From Candidatus Woesearchaeota archaeon (GTDB lineage: Archaea; Nanobdellota; Nanobdellia; SCGC-AAA011-G17; GW2011-AR20), in the NCBI GenBank assembly GCA_016203115.1, contig JACQNJ010000033.1, positions 1 to 35,481 on the forward strand: a stretch of DNA of 35,481 nucleotides, in the 5' to 3' direction. Both the position numbers and the translations under genes were made by a program. The notes below the pieces were generated by a model. That model searched no databases and was not told the origin of the DNA. It was given only the letters and a program-made list of their open reading frames with translations. Shown one piece after another: positions 3,965-30,569 of the stretch (the first letter of the stretch is position 1; each line of letters begins with the position of its first letter).

Positions 3965-5605
3965 TTATTTATGAGCAAAATAAAATACTCTCTTTTTAGG
4001 AGTATTAAGCTCACATCTTATAAAGAAATTTCTTTCTAGCTGAATAATTTCATCTTTTTTTACTTTTTTTATTGATGATTCGGCTATTGCCTTTATTTTT
4101 TTGGCATTATCCATTACTATTTCTATATTTACCAAATCTTTTGAAACAGGAAGCCAGTGAATTAAGGATGCGTTTAAATTTTGATCTGGGGCTGTTGAAA
4201 TATATTCTTTGTTTTTAAAATTGAATAAATGCATTAATCTGTATATCTTGTTTTTTCCTAACTTGTCTTGAATGTAAAATTCTCCTGATGACTTTAATAT
4301 TCTAAAACCTTTCTTTAAATTAGGATGTAAAGGCAGTTTAGCTGTTAATTTGGGGGCATTATTTATTCTAATTTTTTTGGGATTGATAATTGCAAAATAC
4401 CTCTTTGCTTTTTTGTCTATTACTTCCTTGTTTAAATGCGCTAATTTTTCAAAATTGACATGGATCTCTGATTTTGTCAATCTGGCATCTTTTATAAAAT
4501 TGATAACTGTATCTGGCTGAAACCCTCGCTTTCTTAAAGCCTTTAATGTGCCTAGCCTTGGATCATCCCATCCTGTAAGCTTCTTTTCTTGAATTAATCT
4601 CTTAGCTTCTGAAGTTGATTTTACTCCTGAAAATATTATTCTTCCTAAGTAGATTGTTTCAGGATATTGCCAACTGAAATAGTCGTAAATGTATTTCTGC
4701 CTTATATCCGATATTTCCAAATCAATTCCTCTTAAAATATGGGTTACTTCAAGCTCATGATCATCAATTGCCGAAGCGAAGTTTAGCAATGGCCATACCT
4801 TTGCTTTTTTATTTAGTGGATGACTTGATTTGTTTACTATTCTAAACGCTGGCCAATCTCTTACTGCCGGATTTTCATGCATGATGTTTGTCTTTACCCT
4901 GTAGACAGCTTCCCCTTCCTTATATTTTTTAAACATTTTTTTCCATCTTTTTAGTGCTTCTGAACTGGATAAATTTCTGCATTCACATTCCATGCTTTTA
5001 TCTATTAATTTTTTGAATTCTTCCTGATCGCAGGTACAGATATAAGCATTATTACTCTCTATTAATTTCTCAGCATATTTGTAGTAAATTTTCAATCTCC
5101 CAGACTGAATTATTCTTTTATTTATTTTAATTTTTAACCACTTTAGATCCTCTTCAAACCACTTATAAGCTTCTTTCATTGGAACTTTGTTCTTAGGATC
5201 TGTATCATCAAATCTTAAAATGAAAGTTCCTTTGTATCTTTGAACAAAAAAATAATTCCATAGAGCAATTCTGGAGTGGCCTAGAGACATTGGACCATTT
5301 GGGTTTGGAGCAAAACGCATTACTACTTTGCCCTTTTTTGCTTTTGGTAAACTGGGAATTGTTAGAACTTCTTTTATTTTCTTTTTTTGAGGAATATTAT
5401 AATTTTTCAGTTTATTTTTTTGTTCTTCTAATGATAAAGAGTTTACTTCTTTTACTATTTCATTAATTTCTTGTGATATTTGCTGGATATTATTTTTTAA
5501 GCTGGGATTTTCCTGCAAGACCTTCCCTATGACTGCTCCTGGATTGGCTTTTCCATTAAATTGAACAGCATTATTTAGAGCATGTTTTAGAATTATATTT
5601 TTCAT
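3965..5605 (-). CDS. gltX: Glutamyl-tRNA synthetase (archaeal type)
   Basis: RFAPNPNGPMSLGHSR (HIGH-like), FDDTDP, DWPAFRIV, DDHELEVTHILRG, KSTSEAKRLI, GWDDPRLGTLKALRKRGF. Confidence 0.95.
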   Translation of the reverse strand: MKNIILKHALNNAVQFNGKANPGAVIGKVLQENPSLKNNIQQISQEINEIVKEVNSLSLEEQKNKLKNYNIPQKKKIKEVLTIPSLPKAKKGKVVMRFAPNPNGPMSLGHSRIALWNYFFVQRYKGTFILRFDDTDPKNKVPMKEAYKWFEEDLKWLKIKINKRIIQSGRLKIYYKYAEKLIESNNAYICTCDQEEFKKLIDKSMECECRNLSSSEALKRWKKMFKKYKEGEAVYRVKTNIMHENPAVRDWPAFRIVNKSSHPLNKKAKVWPLLNFASAIDDHELEVTHILRGIDLEISDIRQKYIYDYFSWQYPETIYLGRIIFSGVKSTSEAKRLIQEKKLTGWDDPRLGTLKALRKRGFQPDTVINFIKDARLTKSEIHVNFEKLAHLNKEVIDKKAKRYFAIINPKKIRINNAPKLTAKLPLHPNLKKGFRILKSSGEFYIQDKLGKNKIYRLMHLFNFKNKEYISTAPDQNLNASLIHWLPVSKDLVNIEIVMDNAKKIKAIAESSIKKVKKDEIIQLERNFFIRCELNTPKKRVFYFAHK

Positions 5606-6024
5606 TTTATTAACCCTTTTATTATATTTATAATATTTTCAAATTCTTTTTTGTTTTTTTCATAAAATTCCATTGGAATGTCTTCACCATAATAATTTAA
5701 CCTATTCCTAAAAAATGACATTTGCGAGATTAGATAACTTTCACCTTCATAGTCTTTATTATTTATATAGAAATAACTGATCAAGCATTGATGATTTTTT
5801 GATCTTAACCCATTTTTCAATAGATAGGCTACAAGCAATTCTTTTATTACCTCATAATAATCTTCTACCACGAGAGAAACTGTATCTTGGTTTATTTTTG
5901 TATTTTTAGCCCTTTTTAATCTTAACATTGCCTTTTCTGTTATTGCTTTTATTCTATCATTATCTACCTCTATCTTCCTTATGAAGTTTCTTTCACAGTC
6001 TTTCCAGTTCATTATGTCATTCAT
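5602..6024 (-). CDS. HEPN domain protein (putative type VII TA partner)
   Basis: VVEDYYEVIKELLVAYLLKNGLRSKNHQCLISYF...FFRNRLNYYG; translationally coupled to MNT gene. Confidence 0.8.
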   Translation of the reverse strand: MNDIMNWKDCERNFIRKIEVDNDRIKAITEKAMLRLKRAKNTKINQDTVSLVVEDYYEVIKELLVAYLLKNGLRSKNHQCLISYFYINNKDYEGESYLISQMSFFRNRLNYYGEDIPMEFYEKNKKEFENIINIIKGLIK

Positions 6025-6521
6025 TTTACATATCCAAACAATTTTATTCCATTTAGGATATTATTTAATAGACTCTTTGGCACTCTTTTAATATTTGATT
6101 CCAGGAATATATCTATTTTATGCTTTAGTATTTTTTCATATTCTTTTAAACTTAATTCTTTTTTGACTGGCGTTTCTATGAATATATCAATATCTGAATC
6201 TTTATCATATTCTCCTTTTCTTACGCTTCCAAAAACTACTATTAATGAAGGATTTAACTCTTTTATTAAGAAGTCTATTAAACCTGCTTCATACATCTTG
6301 TTTATCATAAAGAAGGTTTTTAGAAATTTTGAATAGTTGTTGTATGAAAATTTATTTTTTTCATCTATTATACCTTTTATTCTTAATTCCCTTAAGTATC
6401 TCTGAATCGTTGAAGTTGGAACTTTAGTCTCTTTATTTATCCTTCTAATCGTAAAATATTCTTCGGGGTTATTGAAGAATAGTTCTAATACACTATCCCA
6501 TTTTTGGTTCTTAAGTACCAT
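6021..6521 (-). CDS. wHTH + nucleotidyltransferase (MNT) domain protein
   Basis: LIVVFGSVRKGEYDKDSDIDIFIET; N-terminal wHTH. Confidence 0.85.
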   Translation of the reverse strand: MVLKNQKWDSVLELFFNNPEEYFTIRRINKETKVPTSTIQRYLRELRIKGIIDEKNKFSYNNYSKFLKTFFMINKMYEAGLIDFLIKELNPSLIVVFGSVRKGEYDKDSDIDIFIETPVKKELSLKEYEKILKHKIDIFLESNIKRVPKSLLNNILNGIKLFGYVK

Positions 6522-22379: not shown

Positions 22380-22511
22380 GTTTTCAAAAACATTTTAGTG
22401 ATTTCAAATTGCAACTAATCACTGTTAGCCGAACCGACCCCTGCGAAGTGGTAAGAGCATAAGTTCGTCGTTTTTTAGTTAGTGGTGGAGTTCAGTCAGT
22501 AGTTTAGGGTT

Positions 22512-22523
22512 GATAGGGTAATT
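22512..22523. repeat. 12-bp inverted repeat arm GATAGGGTAATT (partner 25102-25113)
   Basis: Exact reverse complement AATTACCCTATC at 25102-25113. Confidence 0.55.
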
Positions 22524-22589
22524 CGTCCAAAAACGCAACATTTATATATTATTCATAATTATTGAATAATTATTCACTTATATTGAAAG

Positions 22590-23174
22590 ATGATACCGAA
22601 AAACACTGCAATGGTGGTAATGTTTCTGCTAAGGAACACTGATAAATTTGGCTATAATATTAATCAGATTGCCAAGCTAAACAAGATTAGTGTAGGCAGT
22701 GCATTCAAAATTCTTAAAGAACTTGAGAAAGATAAGTTAATTATAAAGAATGAAATCAGCAATGCATCTCATTATAAGCTTAATTTTGATAATCCTGAAA
22801 CAATAAAATTATGTGAACTTCTTCTTTTAGCAGAAAGAAGAAATCTTAAAGGATATGCAAAACTATATGCAGATGAACTTATAAAATTTAAAGATGCTGA
22901 GATTATTATTATTTTTGGTTCTGTTCTAAGACTAAAAGAGTTTAATGATATTGATGTTCTCTTTATTACTAATAAGGTTAAAAAAGTAAATAATTTTTGT
23001 CTTGAAATATCTAAAGTAAAAACAAAGCCAGTTGTTCCCTTGATTATGAAGCAGGAAGATTTAATAAAAGCACTGAAACAAAAGAAAGATGCCCTCATAA
23101 ACCTGATGAAAGAAGGTATTGTGCTTAAAGGAGAAACTATATTTTTGGAGGTCATAAAAAATGTTAATTCATAA
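22590..23174 (+). CDS. wHTH + MNT nucleotidyltransferase (putative antitoxin)
   Basis: IIIIFGSVLRLKEFNDIDVLFI; overlaps downstream HEPN. Confidence 0.8.
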   Translation: MIPKNTAMVVMFLLRNTDKFGYNINQIAKLNKISVGSAFKILKELEKDKLIIKNEISNASHYKLNFDNPETIKLCELLLLAERRNLKGYAKLYADELIKFKDAEIIIIFGSVLRLKEFNDIDVLFITNKVKKVNNFCLEISKVKTKPVVPLIMKQEDLIKALKQKKDALINLMKEGIVLKGETIFLEVIKNVNS

Positions 23175-23637
23175 GCAAAAGCTGGATTGGTGCTTGGCAA
23201 AAGAAACAAGAATGAAGAAGATTAAACCTAATGACAAACTATCGCAAGAGCATCTCGATAAAGCAAAACATAATCTTCGCGCCGCCGACTATAACATTAA
23301 AGGGGGTTTTAGTGATTGGGGTGTTTCACAATTTTATTATTCTATGTACCATGCTTTGCTTGCAGTGCTTTTCAAGCTCGGTTATGAATCAAAAAACCAT
23401 GAGTGTACGATAAATGCTGTTGAATATTTGATAGAAGAAGGAAAGATTCATCTTGATCTGAAAGATATCGCTTTTATCAGAACAACTGAACAAATGACTT
23501 CAAAAGATGCAAAATCGCTCCGGGAAGAATTTCAATATGGGACAGAAACGGCTGTCAATGAGAAAATCTTGAAAGAATTATTGGAGAATACCAAGAGAAT
23601 AGTGGAAAAAATTGAGATTGCATTGATTGAGTATTAG
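23161..23637 (+). CDS. HEPN domain protein (putative toxin)
   Basis: AKHNLRAADYNIKGGFSDWGVSQFYYSMYHALLAVLFKLGYESKNHECTI...LREEFQYG. Confidence 0.85.
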   Translation: MLIHKQKLDWCLAKETRMKKIKPNDKLSQEHLDKAKHNLRAADYNIKGGFSDWGVSQFYYSMYHALLAVLFKLGYESKNHECTINAVEYLIEEGKIHLDLKDIAFIRTTEQMTSKDAKSLREEFQYGTETAVNEKILKELLENTKRIVEKIEIALIEY

Positions 23638-23800
23638 GGGTGTTAAGTGAGGTCGACCGAAGGGAGAAGTGCAACGCCCCGACGAACCGTAGTGAGGAGA
23701 GTTTTTGCGCTACCGAGACTTCATGTGTCGCCGTATTTTCCTGGTACTTTGCTAATGATAAATAACTGCTTTAGCAGACAAGATTTAGGGAGTCGCTCGT
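23638..23800. repeat. GC-rich intergenic boundary element A
   Basis: Begins immediately after HEPN stop; contains GTTAAGT and gagagtttttgcgctaccgagacttc, similar to element B. Confidence 0.4.
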
Positions 23801-23845
23801 TTAAAATAGAAATCTTTATATATTACTGGTTCATATTTGGTACAC

Positions 23846-24397
23846 ATGGTTCAAAAAAGAAACAGTCTGGAAATGGACATTATTGAGTTGCTGTTAAATG
23901 TAGATAATCATGTGAGAGGTATAGCTAAGAAGCTGAATGAGTCACACTCCACAATCTTAAGAAAGCTGGATAATCTCAAAAGAGAGAATGTCATTGACTC
24001 TAGAAAAGAAGGTAAGAATAAGATTTTCTTCCTAAAAAAGAATCTTGTCTCAAAGACTTATATTCTACAAGCAGAATTACACAAGCTGGCTAAATTGTTG
24101 CGACACAACCCAGAATTAGGTGTTATCTTCGAGGATATTTTGAAAAAGACTGATGCGAAATTAATTGTATTGTTTGGATCTTATGCAAAGGGACTCGCGA
24201 AAAAAGATAGCGATGTTGATATTTACATTGAAACCAAAAACAGGGATGTTAAAAAAGTAATTGAAGCTATCCATTCAAAAATTAATGTTAAGATAGGATC
24301 TTTTGACATTAAGTCTCCATTAATCAAAGAAATTATAAAAGATCACGTAATTCTTAGAGGAATTGAGGTATTTTATGACAAACAAGTTCCTGAATAA
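23846..24397 (+). CDS. wHTH + MNT nucleotidyltransferase (putative antitoxin)
   Basis: LIVLFGSYAKGLAKKDSDVDIYIET; ATG at 23846 about 26 nt after TATA-like ctttatatatt (track start 23837 is TTG). Confidence 0.85.
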   Translation: MVQKRNSLEMDIIELLLNVDNHVRGIAKKLNESHSTILRKLDNLKRENVIDSRKEGKNKIFFLKKNLVSKTYILQAELHKLAKLLRHNPELGVIFEDILKKTDAKLIVLFGSYAKGLAKKDSDVDIYIETKNRDVKKVIEAIHSKINVKIGSFDIKSPLIKEIIKDHVILRGIEVFYDKQVPE

Positions 24398-24854
24398 ACT
24401 GAAAAAGGAAGAGAAGTTGGAATTGGTTGAACCATCAGAGGATATTTGTAACTCATACTCAGAAAAATCAGTTAATTGCTTGAAATCGGCTAAATTATTG
24501 CTACAGAATAATCTTTATGAGAATTCCATTGGTCAATCTTATTATGCGATGTATAATATTTTACTTGCATTATTATTCAGAGTAGGCATTAAATGTGAAA
24601 ATCATGGTGGCTCAATTCTTTTGCTGAAATTATTATTTAGCGAGAATGATTTGTATTCGCTAATTTCTGATGCGAAAAAAGAAAGAATAGACAAACAGTA
24701 TTACGTGACAACAGAAAAAGATGAAATCACTAAAGAGATCGCTACCGAATTACTCAATAATGCCGAAAATTTTGTTTTGAAAATAAAGATGGTTGTTAAA
24801 AACCTGAATAATGATTCTATCGATAAATTGAGGGAAAGATTCATAACTATTTAG
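24363..24854 (+). CDS. HEPN domain protein (putative toxin)
   Basis: NSIGQSYYAMYNILLALLFRVGIKCENHGGSI...KKERIDKQYYVT; overlaps MNT. Confidence 0.85.
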   Translation: MRYFMTNKFLNKLKKEEKLELVEPSEDICNSYSEKSVNCLKSAKLLLQNNLYENSIGQSYYAMYNILLALLFRVGIKCENHGGSILLLKLLFSENDLYSLISDAKKERIDKQYYVTTEKDEITKEIATELLNNAENFVLKIKMVVKNLNNDSIDKLRERFITI

Positions 24855-25050
24855 TCGTCGTATTCCACATTAGTTTAAAGAATTTATCGTAGGATTCCGC
24901 CGCTTCTTTTTGATGAATAATTACTCCAAGCGGTTTATCTGTCCAGACAATGATCCCTATTTTATCATTCCTGATTATTGTTTCAGTAAGTGGCTCAAAT
25001 CCTACTTGGGTGTATTTTACCTCTGATTTTGGATATTTTATCTCAGATTA
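24847..25050 (-). pseudogene. C-terminal remnant of a TrmB-like archaeal transcriptional regulator
   Basis: SEIKYPKSEVKYTQVGFEPLTETIIRNDKIGIIVWTDKPLGVIIHQKEAAESYDKFFKLMWNTTTK*, preceded by an in-frame stop. Confidence 0.5.
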
Positions 25051-25078
25051 ATGCAAGATAAGAATTATCTTTTTTACA

Positions 25079-25375
25079 GCGACCCCACTCGTTTAGTTAG
25101 AAATTACCCTATCCAAGATAAATATCTTTTTCGTAGAAAAAGTCTAAATGTGTGTTAGCACTACAGACCCCCACGTTTTTAAGAACTCAAATTTTATTGA
25201 AACTAATGCCTGTTAGTTTCTCCGACCTACGAGCGAGGACTAGAATTATCGTTAATAAAATTTCCGAGCGGAGTGGGGAGGACAAGGCATCAGCCGAAGA
25301 GTTTTTGAGTTGCTGTACTTCTAGGCGCTGTCGTAGTTTTCCAGAGTAAAGTTAGTCGTGGGGGCGGGCGTTAGT
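25079..25375. repeat. GC-rich intergenic boundary element B
   Basis: GAAACTAA-n6-TTAGTTTC hairpin; TTTTTGAGTTGCT (25302-25314), GGCGCTGTC (25324-25332) and GGGGGCGGGCGTTA (25360-25373) recur inverted in element C. Confidence 0.6.
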
Positions 25376-25870
25376 AAGTTTTTGTTTAATCTTCTGGATT
25401 TGAGTTTCAGTTATTTTCTCAATTACTTCTTCCATCTTCAGAACAAAGTTTCTCGCAGTTGCTGAATCTGTTTTCAGTTTTTCTTTATCTATTTGTTCCG
25501 TTACGTAATATTGTGTATCCACACGTAACTCTTTGGCTAATAATAACTCAGTATAAAACTGTTCTTCAACAATGTTCTCTTCAACGAGAAGAAAATGCAT
25601 TAATGAAATGGTGCAGTCATGGATTTCTGATTTTATGCCACATTTTTGAAGCAGAGCATACAAAACAAAATATCGGGAATAATACGCTGTTGTTGCTATC
25701 CAATCTATTTCTTCTTTTTCAATGGCGGAATCAAGCATATTTAGCGCACTCTTTGCTTTTTCGATATACGCTTTGCACAGATTATCATTTGGTTCTTCCA
25801 GTTTAATGCCTCGCTTCTGCTTCCAGCACCAAGAAACGTGGCTTTTGGAATCTTTATCTTTCGATTTCAT
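25352..25870 (-). CDS. HEPN domain protein (putative toxin); C-terminal codons lie inside boundary repeat
   Basis: WIATTAYYSRYFVLYALLQKCGIKSEIHDCTI...ELRVDTQYYVT; similar to the 24363 HEPN. Confidence 0.85.
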   Translation of the reverse strand: MKSKDKDSKSHVSWCWKQKRGIKLEEPNDNLCKAYIEKAKSALNMLDSAIEKEEIDWIATTAYYSRYFVLYALLQKCGIKSEIHDCTISLMHFLLVEENIVEEQFYTELLLAKELRVDTQYYVTEQIDKEKLKTDSATARNFVLKMEEVIEKITETQIQKIKQKLTNARPHD

Positions 25871-26471
25871 AGTAATACCTCCATAATGCGTTAATAAAAA
25901 TGTCTGGGTTGTGCAAAATAAGGTGGTATTTTAGGATTTCCATAATCAAGGCGTCTTTTTTTCTTAGTCCATTCTCAAAGCTTTCAGGTATTGTAGTCTT
26001 AAGATTAATGGTTTTTCCGTATGTTTTTCCCATAGCTTTTATTTTTGTGATTTCAGCTTCTTTCAGTTCTCCTAAACAAAACAGGTCAAGATCACTATCT
26101 TCTTTGAATGTTCTTTTAGCATAAGAACCAAATAAAACAAATGAACCTGAAAGATTAAGTTTAGAAATTTCTGTCGTTATTTTTTTAATGAGAAATACTT
26201 GTTCTTGAAAGAGTATTGCTTCTACAAGTTCGCTTATAATCAAATAATTTTTGGTGAGATTATTATCAAGATTTAAAGTGTAAACTTTGTTTTTGCCAAT
26301 AGTCTTAGCGATTAGGACTTTATCTTTTTCTAATGCTCCAAGATGTGGAAGAAGAGTAACATGGCTTTTCTTGGTTAATTTAGCCATTTCTCTAGTGTGG
26401 TATTGGGCTAAATAGTTTGAACGGTAAAGGCTAATTATCCTCAGTTTGTTACTGGTCGTTTTATCTACCAT
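25854..26471 (-). CDS. wHTH + MNT nucleotidyltransferase (putative antitoxin)
   Basis: GSFVLFGSYAKRTFKEDSDLDLFCLG; overlaps HEPN start. Confidence 0.85.
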   Translation of the reverse strand: MVDKTTSNKLRIISLYRSNYLAQYHTREMAKLTKKSHVTLLPHLGALEKDKVLIAKTIGKNKVYTLNLDNNLTKNYLIISELVEAILFQEQVFLIKKITTEISKLNLSGSFVLFGSYAKRTFKEDSDLDLFCLGELKEAEITKIKAMGKTYGKTINLKTTIPESFENGLRKKDALIMEILKYHLILHNPDIFINALWRYYYEIER

Positions 26472-26544
26472 GTGGTATTAATAATTACCATCAGTATAAA
26501 AATGTTTTGGTTATTGTGTTATTACTCATAAAAGACAAACAAAC

Positions 26545-26561
26545 AGAAAGCTTTATAAATA
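26545..26561 (+). promoter_or_regulatory. archaeal BRE/TATA promoter agaaagctttataaata
   Basis: Identical 17-mer at 28142-28158; start codon about 20 nt downstream. Confidence 0.65.
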
Positions 26562-26581
26562 GGTGCTACTTTAAGCCTCAT

Positions 26582-26942
26582 ATGAACTTTAAAGAATTAC
26601 TGGCAGCAGGTTTGATTGGAGCATTGGTTGCAGGGGTAGATGGATGTAAAAAGGAAACGCCTGATCTTGAAGCTGTGGTTGAACAGACTGCCTCATTTGA
26701 AAGAACAATCAACGGACACTCCTATAAGTTTGAAGGAAATAAAGTTACAGAGATAACTTCTGATGAAGATACTCAAGCAATATATGGTATCATTTCCGAT
26801 GCTCATGGCGAAGCAATTCAGTGCTAATTTTGGTGGTCTTGAAGCTTGGAAGCATCTTGATGGAAAAACATATAGTGGAATGGTCGGAGTTCTCACAGTA
26901 AAGGGAGATCAAGCGAAATTTGAAATGTTATACGCACAGTAA
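26582..26942 (+). pseudogene. small lipoprotein with apparent 1-nt frameshift
   Basis: Frame 1 MNFKELLAAGLIGALVAGVDGCKKE...YGIISDAHGEAIQC* (to 26827); +1 frame ORF 26805..26942 MAKQFSANFGGLEAWKHLDGKTYSGMVGVLTVKGDQAKFEMLYAQ*. Confidence 0.55.
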
Positions 26943-26955
26943 GTCTATCGTTTGT

Positions 26956-27208
26956 TAACGCCCGCCCCCAATAAATCTCTGAAAATTTTGTTTAGTCTAC
27001 GTTAAGTGAAGTTGCTAATTTCATTCCGTTTTTTCTCTTGACTAAACGAAGACAGCGCCGTCAAGAAGTATCAGTTCACTTTTAGCGATAAAAGCAACTC
27101 AAAAATTGAAACTAAGCCCTGTTCAACGACCTGAGGGCATCAGCCCGAAAATGCAATGTGGCAAGCGAGATTAATTTTAGCAAATTTTAAGGGCTGGGGA
27201 CGGCGCGC
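26956..27208. repeat. GC-rich intergenic boundary element C
   Basis: TAACGCCCGCCCCC (26956-26969) pairs with B; GCGAGATTAATTTTAG (27165-27180) and GACGGCGCGC (27199-27208) pair with D. Confidence 0.6.
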
Positions 27209-27209
27209 A

Positions 27210-27930
27210 TTATTTTATTGCAACAATATCCAGATGTCTTGGTCTTTCCATTTCTATATTCTTGTAATCTCTATAAACTTCAAATTTCGAGAATCCAGCT
27301 TTTTGTAATTGGTCCACCCAATCTCTCTCTAAGAATATGGGTAACACATAAATCTTGATACTCTTTTTCACCAATTTTATGAATTACATCCCTAATTCTA
27401 AAATGCTCTGTAAATCTATCGTGTATTTTTGTTTTTATTTTTTCCCCATTATCTCCGAGAGTCTCATTTTCAATGAATTTTTCCTTGCTCTCAGGAATAT
27501 GTTCCCAACTTTTATTATCTATAACAAAAATGCCACCTTTTCTAAGAGATTGAAAAATATTTTTTATGACTTTCCAATATTGTAAGGGTTCCTCTCCTAA
27601 AGTGGTCCACATACATATGGCGGCATCAAATTTTTCAGGATATGAAAAATTATTTGCGTTTTGTAAAACAAATTGGGCATTTGAACTTTCTTTTTTCGCA
27701 TCATCTTCTGCTTTCTTAATTTGAAATGGCGAAAAATCAATTCCTACGACTTCGTAGCCCATCTTGGATAATGGAATAGCGTGCCTTCCTATACCGCAAG
27801 CTACATCCAAAATTTTTTTTACATCATGTTTTTTAAAAATCCCATCTAAAAGATTGATTTCTAAATTTGTATCTACAAGATGATTAATAATTGTTTTATA
27901 ATGTTCTGGAAGTTTATAGAGGATTTGCAT
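27210..27930 (-). pseudogene. class I SAM-dependent methyltransferase with C-terminal frameshift
   Basis: KKILDVACGIGRHAIPLSKMGYEVVGIDFSPFQI; annotated ORF ends 27280, but the +1 frame continues ..DWVDQLQKAGFSKFEVYRDYKNIEMERPRHLDIVAIK* to 27210. Confidence 0.8.
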
Positions 27931-27969
27931 AATTTAAGTAAAATGATTAGTTATTTAAAGTTTTGTTTG

Positions 27970-28138
27970 GCGCGCCGTCTGGGCGGGGGACGGAATAACT
28001 AAAATTAATCTCGCGCAGAGTTTTTTTGCTTCAGCAAAAAATTTCGTTGAATTCCTGTTAGTTTCGTCTGACCAACGGGAAGACCTAAAATTTAGTGCAA
28101 TGTTCCGAAGGAAAATTTTAGAGTTTTTTTCGGGGCAC
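27970..28138. repeat. GC-rich intergenic boundary element D
   Basis: GCGCGCCGTC (27970-27979) and CTAAAATTAATCTCGC (27999-28014) are inverted copies of C; ends TTTTTTTCGGGGCAC (28124-28138). Confidence 0.6.
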
Positions 28139-28141
28139 AAT

Positions 28142-28158
28142 AGAAAGCTTTATAAATA
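28142..28158 (+). promoter_or_regulatory. archaeal BRE/TATA promoter agaaagctttataaata
   Basis: Identical to 26545-26561; ATG at 28179. Confidence 0.65.
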
Positions 28159-28178
28159 TCAACTAAATAGTAGTAACT

Positions 28179-28604
28179 ATGGACGTTGATTACAAAAAAT
28201 TAGTAAATGTAGTAGAAAATGCTAAATTTCAAAGTTATGAAAGATTAAGTTACTCTGGAGGGGATTTCCTTTTATTTCCAGGAGAACATACTAAACGAGA
28301 TGAAGAAGATGGAAATCCGCCAATTTTTTGTAATCCATCATTAATGGCAGATTGGGATATATATTTCGGAATGAACGTAGTACCAAAAGATTTTAGACGA
28401 CCATGCTTATTGCATGAAATACTTGAAATGAGTTCATTCGACGAAATAAAACAAGCTCCCAATCTGACAAAGGAAGAAGCTTTGAGACAAGCTCACGATA
28501 TTGCAAGAGAATATGATAATAGATACGCAAGAGAAACATTAAGTGAGCCAAGATATACAGAATATACAAAGCTTCGACAAAGACTTCTGAACGGACGTAG
28601 TTAA
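28179..28604 (+). CDS. hypothetical protein (141 aa) in inverted-repeat-bounded unit
   Basis: Promoter upstream; stop codon (28602-28604) directly abuts right repeat arm. Confidence 0.65.
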   Translation: MDVDYKKLVNVVENAKFQSYERLSYSGGDFLLFPGEHTKRDEEDGNPPIFCNPSLMADWDIYFGMNVVPKDFRRPCLLHEILEMSSFDEIKQAPNLTKEEALRQAHDIAREYDNRYARETLSEPRYTEYTKLRQRLLNGRS

Positions 28605-28634
28605 GTGCCCCGAAAAAAATTGAAACTAACAGTC
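28605..28634. repeat. boundary element E: GTGCCCCGAAAAAAA (28605-28619) plus TTGAAACTAACAG
   Basis: Perfect 15-bp inverted copy of 28124-28138; GAAACTAACAG is the inverse of CTGTTAGTTTC in B and D. Confidence 0.65.
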
Positions 28635-28746
28635 TTTTAACGAAGTTCTTTGAATTTTGTTAAAATACAGCTTAAAGGGGCTATATTTGAGTAATGATTC
28701 TAGAAATTTTAGTAAAATATAAAAAGATATATCACATGTTTATGTT

Positions 28747-29586
28747 ATGGGTTATACTCCTGTTGATGTTGAAACAGCTGTAGAAAGAGAGTGCAGGAGA
28801 AGGAGATATTCTGAAAAGACAATAAAAACTTATTTGTTTTGCATTGATAAATTTTTAAAATGGTGCAGGAAAGATTTAGGAAAAATAAGCAAAAAGGATG
28901 TAAGGTTATTTCTTGAACACTTAAGCGAGAAAAATCTTGCTGGAAGCTCTCTAAATGTTAATCACATGGCATTAAGATTCTTGTTTCAGGAAGTTCTTGG
29001 TAAGACAATGTGGATTGACATAAAATATTCTAAAGTGCCAGAAAAGTTACCTACTGTCCTTACAAAAGAAGAAGTAAAGATGCTATTAGAATCTATTGAC
29101 AACCCTAAGCACAGGCTAATGATAGGGCTTATGTACTCTGCAGGGTTGAGAGTTTCTGAGCTAATCAATCTAAAAATTAAAGATTTTGAGTTTGACAAGG
29201 GATATGGATTTATTAGAGCAGGCAAAGGAAACAAAGACAGGCTTTTTGTCTTATCTCAAAAAATAAAGGATGGTGTTATTTCTTTGTTAGAAAAAGAGAA
29301 ATTAAATCATGAAGGATTATTGTTTATAGGCAATAGAAACAGAGCTTACAATCCTAGAAGCCTGCAAATTATTGTTAAAAAAGCATGTAAAAGAGCAGGT
29401 ATCAAGAAAAATGTGCATTGCCATACACTTAGGCATAGTTTTGCAACCCACTTAATTGAAAATGGGTATGATGTTTCTGCTGTGCAGGCAATTCTTGGCC
29501 ATAAAAGCCCTGAAACAACTATGGTTTACATTCACATGGCTTCTCCCAGTATGATAAGCATAAAGAGTCCTTTAGACACCCTATAG
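28747..29586 (+). CDS. xerA: XerA/XerC-D-like tyrosine recombinase
   Basis: YSAGLRVSELINLKIKDFEF, GKGNKDR, HTLRHSFATHLIENGYDVSAVQAILGHKSPETTMVYIH, C-terminal IKSPLDTL; R-K-H-R-H-Y catalytic set visible. Confidence 0.93.
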   Translation: MGYTPVDVETAVERECRRRRYSEKTIKTYLFCIDKFLKWCRKDLGKISKKDVRLFLEHLSEKNLAGSSLNVNHMALRFLFQEVLGKTMWIDIKYSKVPEKLPTVLTKEEVKMLLESIDNPKHRLMIGLMYSAGLRVSELINLKIKDFEFDKGYGFIRAGKGNKDRLFVLSQKIKDGVISLLEKEKLNHEGLLFIGNRNRAYNPRSLQIIVKKACKRAGIKKNVHCHTLRHSFATHLIENGYDVSAVQAILGHKSPETTMVYIHMASPSMISIKSPLDTL

Positions 29587-29989: not shown

Positions 29990-30024
29990 AAAGCTTTAAA
30001 TACTAAATGGTATCTATTGGTAGC

Positions 30025-30270
30025 ATGAATACACAAATAAATTTAAGATTGCCTGAGAAAATGCTGGTTTCGGCTCAAGCTTATGCGAAAAAATACGGTT
30101 TTGGCACTGTGCAGGATCTTATAAAAGAAACTATGAGAGAAAAACTTTTTACAGAACAAGCAATATCAAAAGAAGAGCTAATACTAGTTAAGAGACTAGT
30201 TGAGGCCATTGAAAGTAAAAATTTGTATGGAACTGAGGAAGAACTCTTTCGAAAACTAAAGGAAAAGTAA
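30025..30270 (+). CDS. RHH-like antitoxin
   Basis: NTQINLRLPEKMLVSAQAYAKKYGFGTVQDLIKETMREKLF; TATA-like box aaagctttaaata upstream supports the ATG at 30025. Confidence 0.75.
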   Translation: MNTQINLRLPEKMLVSAQAYAKKYGFGTVQDLIKETMREKLFTEQAISKEELILVKRLVEAIESKNLYGTEEELFRKLKEK

Positions 30271-30272
30271 AG

Positions 30273-30569
30273 ATGGAATATAAATTAAAACCATCTCATT
30301 TCTTTTTAAAACAACTAGAAGAACTTAGCAGTGAAGCTGCAAGAATTGTTGAAAATCGATTGAGACTTGTCAAAATAAACCCTTTTCGCAATAAAAGAAT
30401 TGAAGGGTATAATCTATTTTTGTTCAGAATACGCTTTGAAGATAATCGCAAGGAAAAAAGAATTATTTATCTTGTTGATAAGCCTTGTGTGAAACTTATA
30501 TGCATCCTTGATAGGGACAAAGAGTATAAGGACTTAAAAAAATACCTTAAAGATTTAGGATATCTTTGA
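30273..30569 (+). CDS. RelE/ParE-family toxin
   Basis: KPSHFFLKQLEELSSEAARIVENRL...NPFRNKRIEGYNLFLFRIRFED..EKRIIYLVD; 2 nt after antitoxin. Confidence 0.85.
   Translation: MEYKLKPSHFFLKQLEELSSEAARIVENRLRLVKINPFRNKRIEGYNLFLFRIRFEDNRKEKRIIYLVDKPCVKLICILDRDKEYKDLKKYLKDLGYL

Follow-up and report, generated by a model that had tools for sequence, protein, structure and literature searches.

Contig JACQNJ010000033.1 of a Candidatus Woesearchaeota archaeon (assembly GCA_016203115.1) was analysed as a window of 35,481 nucleotides, in which an array of small gene units lies next to the gene of a XerA-like tyrosine recombinase (Table 1). Its gene content agrees with an original prediction made from the sequence alone: three MNT/HEPN pairs, an S-adenosylmethionine (SAM) methyltransferase, an orphan open reading frame (ORF) and the XerA-like recombinase, whose start codon faces the array as had been described. 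Each of the five inverted-repeat pairs named in that prediction is exact at the positions given in Table 1, and some unit genes end at the repeat. The repeats form the inner part of longer imperfect foldbacks. They are also unit-specific, as had been claimed. In the four consecutive units the longest exact complementary run between cognate left and right elements is 12, 15, 16 and 15 bp, compared with 6-10 bp for the 12 non-cognate pairings and at most 9-11 bp for shuffled elements. The weakest cognate pair is that of A-B (12 bp, where shuffles reach 11); the other three are far beyond chance.

Composite dif-like sites of the form ATTGNNNNTAA-N6-TTANNNNN join the units to each other, and junctions of neighbouring units in general follow the pattern (..TAA)-5 to 8 nt-(TTA..). 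When the whole assembly of 763 kb was scanned for dif-like sequences, the four top-scoring cores were B, C, D and E. The two arms of a single core site need not match each other. It is the inner arms within a unit that match, namely TTAGTTTC/GAAACTAA in B-C and D-E and TTCAACGA/TCGTTGAA in C-D. This is also true for the 44 defined units that were compared, where inner core arms matched at 7.02 of 8 positions within units versus 6.00 between units, a value not reached in any of 5000 permutations. In the spacers of the window (Table 1), CTG precedes TT in all four left ends, while the remaining three spacer letters vary at each site.

Table 1. Positions of the array features and of the recombinase gene in the window
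Feature	Position	Strand	Description	Basis
Core site A	22408..22435		ATTGCAACTAA-TCACTG-TTAGCCGAACC; distal end of the array, just past a DEAD-box helicase gene	sequence, dif-like scan
Unit A-B	22425..25206		two MNT/HEPN pairs; inner repeat 22512-22523/25102-25113	
Orphan left-end element	23640..23703	+	GTGTTAAGTGAGG...AGTGCAACG...GAGAGTT; between the two MNT/HEPN pairs of A-B	sequence, alignment
Core site B	25196..25223		ATTGAAACTAA-TGCCTG-TTAGTTTCTCC	dif-like scan
Unit B-C	25213..27115		HEPN and MNT (minus), small lipoprotein ORF (plus); repeats 25360-25373/26956-26969 and blocks GAGTTGCT, GGCGCTGTC	
Core site C	27105..27132		ATTGAAACTAA-GCCCTG-TTCAACGACCT	dif-like scan
Unit C-D	27122..28051		SAM methyltransferase (minus); inner repeats 27165-27180/27999-28014 and 27199-27208/27970-27979; foldback z = -6.2	
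Core site D	28041..28068		ATTTCGTTGAA-TTCCTG-TTAGTTTCGTC	dif-like scan
D-E structured left end	28055..28125	+	core arm, hp1, hp2 with GTGCAA loop and hp3, AGTT; founder of model R1, 80 bits	
Unit D-E	28058..28629		orphan ORF 28179-28604; S arms 28124-28138/28605-28619; foldback z = -8.25	
Core site E	28619..28646		ATTGAAACTAA-CAGTCT-TTTAACGAAGT; attI-like, recombinase-proximal; right half is a chromosomal half conserved upstream of related recombinases	dif-like scan
Recombinase	28747..29586	+	XerA-like tyrosine recombinase of 279 aa; complete catalytic set, no IntI-specific insertion; founder of a monophyletic clade	

The elements of a unit follow each other in a constant order: left end, unit-specific arm S, cargo in either orientation, the complement of S, and the right end ATTGNNNNTAA. 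The complement sits 0.3-4.8 kb beyond S, directly before the right end. The left end begins with a core arm (TTANNNNC), followed by a small hairpin (hp1), a larger one (hp2) with an unpaired GTGCAA(C/T) segment and hp3, and finally AGTT. Comparisons were of sequence only, in metagenome-assembled genomes (MAGs) sampled at one genome per species. RNAalifold found no structure in a mixed set of left ends; strong covariation appeared after the main group had been split off and the structure stated. Two-sided changes then occurred in 9 of the 15 pairs, with 37 such cells versus 9.6 in shuffles, and slid controls collapsed. For 42 of the 72 left ends, the unit's own S arm was a better partner than every one of the 20 foreign arms tried; the number expected was 3.4. 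Single-strand folding, proposed as a check in the original prediction, gave the same picture for whole units: folded as single-stranded DNA without constraints, D-E and C-D both paired end to end with the gene in the loop (z-scores in Table 1).

G.T pairs make up about 2% of the hp2 pairs, which is more DNA-like than RNA-like. The longest ORF runs along the unit in 23 cases and is opposed to it in 19. Because ORFs run both ways, the structured end is neither an mRNA leader nor a terminator, and the element is a gene-carrying one at the DNA level. No match for the element was found in Rfam.

Short hairpin units devoid of genes, e.g. CATCGCGATTAAGAGAAGTT...AATCTCTTAATCGCTG, were observed after right ends between some cassettes (loci L122, L123, L124, L131, L133 and L173). 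Their spacers measure 8 nt (CATCGCGA), not 6, and the units may represent either empty cassettes or another type of site.

The distribution of the units was followed with R1, a covariance model of the commonest left-end type only, so that prevalences are lower bounds; its E-values are rough. The left ends at sites A, B and C of the window belong to a second group. At the level of the order R1 matched in 45 of 103 genomes, and for the whole class, i.e. Woesearchaeota and their kin, in 86 of 281 (76 of 194 in a second, overlapping draw), with up to ten copies per genome. In 22 genomes outside the class no match was found, and exact motif scans of IMG/VR gave none either, one of the two patterns being partly mis-specified. 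Copies lying within a few kb of each other on one contig were always on the same strand, head to tail (more than 20 clusters).

Unit ends recur in other genomes around different DNA. When the order was searched with the D-E left end, 24 of 103 genomes proved to contain near-identical copies, with identities of up to 98% over 62-75 nt. These matches span the core to GAGTTTTT or nearby and then stop, and the DNA beyond differs. In three units (L122 in G032:C22, L124 in G066:C9 and L133 in G054:C87) about 100 nt of the left end and about 95 nt of the right end are 85-96% identical (TTTTTGGATTACTGATAAA...). These genomes belong to two families, and the cargo inside is unrelated: a radical SAM protein with a methyltransferase, an ABC transporter and, by our reading, an M16-like peptidase. 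Unrelated cargo between the same shell ends in three genomes shows that cargo can be exchanged inside a conserved shell. A search of related genomes for the same elements around other genes had been proposed as a check in the original prediction, and such elements were observed. Domains found in the cargo include nucleotidyltransferases, a cytosine DNA methylase with Vsr, HD, NUDIX, isochorismatase, a SAM methyltransferase and a hydrolase.

Turnover of whole units is seen closer to the source genome. In G001, a genome of the same genus, the recombinase is kept (94% protein identity) and the DNA downstream of it is 91% identical, but the units upstream, at the same site, are wholly different and carry unit-specific arms of their own (GAGAACCTGC/GCAGGTTCTC and GGAAGCGCGC/GCGCGCTTCC). 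At the left flank (site A), G001 has another gene after the helicase orthologue and its contig ends 461 bp further on, which allows no conclusion for this side. G053 and G043 share a segment of 94% identity that begins precisely at the core (^TTAAGTGAAATTG); outside it the sequences are unrelated. Conservation of the whole block in synteny, without gain or loss of units, was looked for in the genomes compared and was not seen. The recombinase-linked cassette platform of the original prediction, with turnover at the level of units, is supported both by an array that changed beside a kept recombinase and by the same ends around other cargo in other families. Of 86 left-end elements in one R1 survey, at least 10 are found no more than 500 bp from a contig start, which would fit arrays that differ between members of a population and disrupt assemblies. 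An apparent empty site in G011 (TTGCAATTAA-CACACT-TTTAACGG) was rejected, since a larger locus has a unit there. On contig C38 of the same genome (L046:1230-2066) an orthologue of the recombinase has an internal stop codon and a unit still adjoins it; possibly this is a fixed array.

The recombinase reaches the family score of XerA (NF040815; 228.5 bits, cut-off 220) and stays below the cut-off of the NCBI model for integron integrases (TIGR02249; 216.7 bits, cut-off 265). It belongs to a monophyletic clade of 33 rows (support 100/99) with hosts among Woesearchaeota, Nanoarchaeota and some Aenigmatarchaeota MAGs. The catalytic arginines, lysine, histidines and tyrosine are invariant across this clade, which is separate in the tree from both the IntI clade (support 100/100) and the XerA paralogues. 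A canonical XerA paralogue, 40% identical, is encoded in the source assembly as well (contig C1). Although the best match among solved structures is IntI4 (2a3v), the tree does not support IntI as a sister clade. For residues 174-240 of IntI4 the recombinase offers only about 26 counterparts, and the motif spacing in the region of the IntI insertion is 60-67 aa in the clade (80 in L220) versus 107-109 in IntI.

Elements and recombinases occur together more often than expected. In genomes with a strong recombinase match, 14 of 49 R1 elements lie within 10 kb of a Xer-like recombinase, where 2.4 were expected (an approximately six-fold excess), and the element was found in 16 of 24 genomes with the recombinase clade versus 11 of 37 (Fisher p = 0.008). 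The arrangement is constant too: 12 of the 14 near elements precede the recombinase's start codon and turn their right end towards it, and at five further loci of the clade (L216, L220, L223, L228 and L239) all strong R1 matches are upstream of the recombinase and on its strand. Some 100-220 nt upstream of clade recombinases there is a conserved half-site (e.g. CAGTCT-TTTAACGAAG, CAGTTC-ATATACGAAA, CAGACT-TTAAACGAAA). The recombinase-proximal site is composite and dif-like, consisting of the right end of the last unit and a chromosomal half-site.

We think it probable that the locus is an array of mobile gene cassettes, i.e. a recombinase-linked platform that works like an integron yet is not one. 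Within the open-access literature, to which our survey was confined, cassettes of this kind have no earlier description. The adjacent XerA-like recombinase would insert and excise the units at the core sites, and action of this enzyme at the cores is, to judge from the evidence above, rather likely. A unit would be recognised by its two ends, which foldback pairing brings into contact, probably while the DNA is single-stranded and the gene forms the loop. That the ends are folded together at recognition, and probably single-stranded, is a proposal to which we give slightly less than an even chance; its rationale is that S pairing and the covarying one-sided structure make sense only if the ends meet. 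No two sites of one array agree in the first three spacer letters, so that exchange would not require spacer homology. On the fullest form of this explanation the platform would be an independently evolved analogue of the integron, with a XerA-derived recombinase devoid of the I2 helix, folded single-stranded cassettes whose gene is the hairpin loop, cargo exchangeable in a conserved shell, and a class-wide distribution in Woesearchaeota and their kin. As a whole this picture is tentative, and the balance is somewhat against it.

Several observations weigh against the cassette platform or parts of it. Thirty-five of the 49 R1 elements are not within 10 kb of a recombinase, being dispersed or on short contigs. 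Elements without a link to the recombinase, which the original prediction had named as evidence against itself, are thus found in part, alongside the excess of near ones. At G036:C15, G043:C7, G054:C87 and G057:C18, R1 elements adjoin Xer-like recombinases outside the main clade. Because these four fall elsewhere in the Xer tree the link to the recombinase is not exclusive, and more than one recombinase lineage may serve the same cassettes, as the four loci suggest. No clear partner was found for 30 of the 72 left ends, and the match of core arms is not universal, with only 5 of 8 in some units. Mismatches pooled over the stems (34 G.T versus 19 A.C) do not single out the strand that folds. 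Integron integrases are thought to owe their single-strand activity to the I2 helix (PMC7790495); its absence here speaks against a folded-strand step, and the use of a folded strand would need a different solution. Finally, the assignment of the enzyme and the mobility of the units are read from sequence.

The original prediction had left a choice between a diverged integron and a different system, of which the latter is the better option. Features shared with integrons are a row of small gene units at a tyrosine recombinase gene whose 5' end is turned towards them, a putative attachment site adjoining that gene, a single polarity of folded unit ends, and adaptive and toxin-antitoxin cargo. 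An actual integron with an IntI-type integrase, attI and attC might also draw support from IntI4 as the best structure match, from the attI-like site at the start of the recombinase gene, and from the boundary letters TG-TT, which recall the G^TT cut of attC. In archaeal integrons, however, IntIs are defined by the IntI-specific domain and attCs by their bacterial-type fold (Ghaly et al. 2022, PMC9668308), whereas the recombinase of the window lacks that domain and falls outside the IntI clade and below the integrase cut-off. A scan for the attC-like R''/R' pair (RYYYAAC...GTTRRRY) found none in 22380-28760 and two in the whole window, against 3.9 in shuffles. The topology of the hairpins is also the opposite: the foldback encloses the gene here and cargo orientation is random, while integron hairpins lie between genes. 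We therefore regard a diverged integron as very improbable.

A different explanation starts from the pdif/xrs modules of Acinetobacter plasmids, in which genes, often toxin-antitoxin pairs, lie between dif-like sites with matching inner arms. These modules are served in trans by the chromosomal Xer-type recombinases XerC and XerD and have neither unit-specific arms nor a structured end (PMC11705084). Double-stranded Xer recombination at the cores might likewise move the units described here as circles, and the foldback arms and the structured end, unread by the recombinase, might serve transcription insulation, replication or stability. The cores are dif-shaped, with two arms and a spacer of about 6 nt; cores B-E have inner arms that match in the manner of inverted dif sites, the XerA-like recombinase has no I2, and the cargo includes toxin-antitoxin pairs. 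Yet double-stranded Xer exchange needs matching spacers and these vary within one array. As far as the sequences tell, the action of a host dimer-resolution enzyme (XerC/XerD or XerA) at 28-bp sites with one shared spacer, as in pdif/Xer modules, does not apply here, because the recombinase clade is distinct from the XerA paralogue and its gene appears dedicated, at the end of the array. S-arm pairing in unit after unit and a covarying one-sided structure would moreover be left unaccounted for, and we consider this explanation unlikely, if worth keeping in mind. The archaeal XerA/dif system shares recombinase family and site shape. It resolves chromosome dimers at one site (PMC2958812, PMC3646895), whereas here a recombinase of a separate clade accompanies a canonical XerA paralogue, and the sites are hybrid and form an array.

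If the units were non-autonomous elements like miniature inverted-repeat transposable elements (MITEs), moved by an unrelated enzyme such as a single-strand transposase, the recombinase would be only a frequent neighbour or a marker of the target site. This would suit the majority of elements that lie away from recombinases, the shells kept while cargo changes, and the hairpin-rich ends. It fits poorly with head-to-tail arrays of one polarity, with the enrichment and constant orientation at recombinase genes, and with hybrid core sites in place of target duplications. The terminal repeats of a MITE or insertion sequence would also be fixed and alike in all copies, but here the S arms vary by unit, and what the copies have in common is limited to the left-end structure and the core. 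Such an origin is improbable in our view. Ordinary RNA structures, i.e. terminators or hairpins of untranslated regions beside independently acquired genes, would explain why the GC-rich hairpins are intergenic and why some genes stop at the repeat. As a full account they are refuted by the orientation and boundary data, since the structured end is upstream or downstream of the gene about equally and homology stops exactly at the cores. Pairing across 0.3-4.8 kb of coding sequence, the scarcity of G.T pairs and the negative Rfam search make them scarcely credible. The cassette platform remains the reading that we prefer.

The genomes of DPANN archaea are very small, and little is understood of the ways in which these archaea acquire genes. 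A platform of low copy number spread through the class, carrying toxin-antitoxin, restriction-modification, methyltransferase and hydrolase cargo, would, if true, offer them a concrete route for doing so. Integron-like capture would then also have evolved twice, the second time out of another branch of the tyrosine recombinases and with the hairpin inside out. This bears on how folded single-stranded DNA became a substrate of integron integrases and on the origin of new cassettes. With conserved shells around unrelated cargo, the capture step becomes directly open to study.

In unit A-B an orphan left end separates the two MNT/HEPN pairs; no partner right end for this element was seen in the unit. 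The second pair (23787-24880) has 78% DNA identity to a segment of G035:C13 (L189:701-1788), a genome of another family. Because of the orphan left end and the recurrence of the second pair in G035, A-B probably represents two units fused through loss of a right end. Outside the array the window contains a further MNT/HEPN pair (5602-6521), near which no core sites were noticed, and a small RelB/RelE-like gene pair directly downstream of the recombinase (30007-30569). A repeat of about 140 bp (GTATCCGTTTAGTTAACCGAAAATAACAAATAGTAGTTTCAACTACTAACTC...) was found at five contig ends of G000 (C11:1-145, C13:22700-22843, both ends of C16, and C20:1-140). Probably it marks one end of a further multi-copy element, at which the assembly breaks up.

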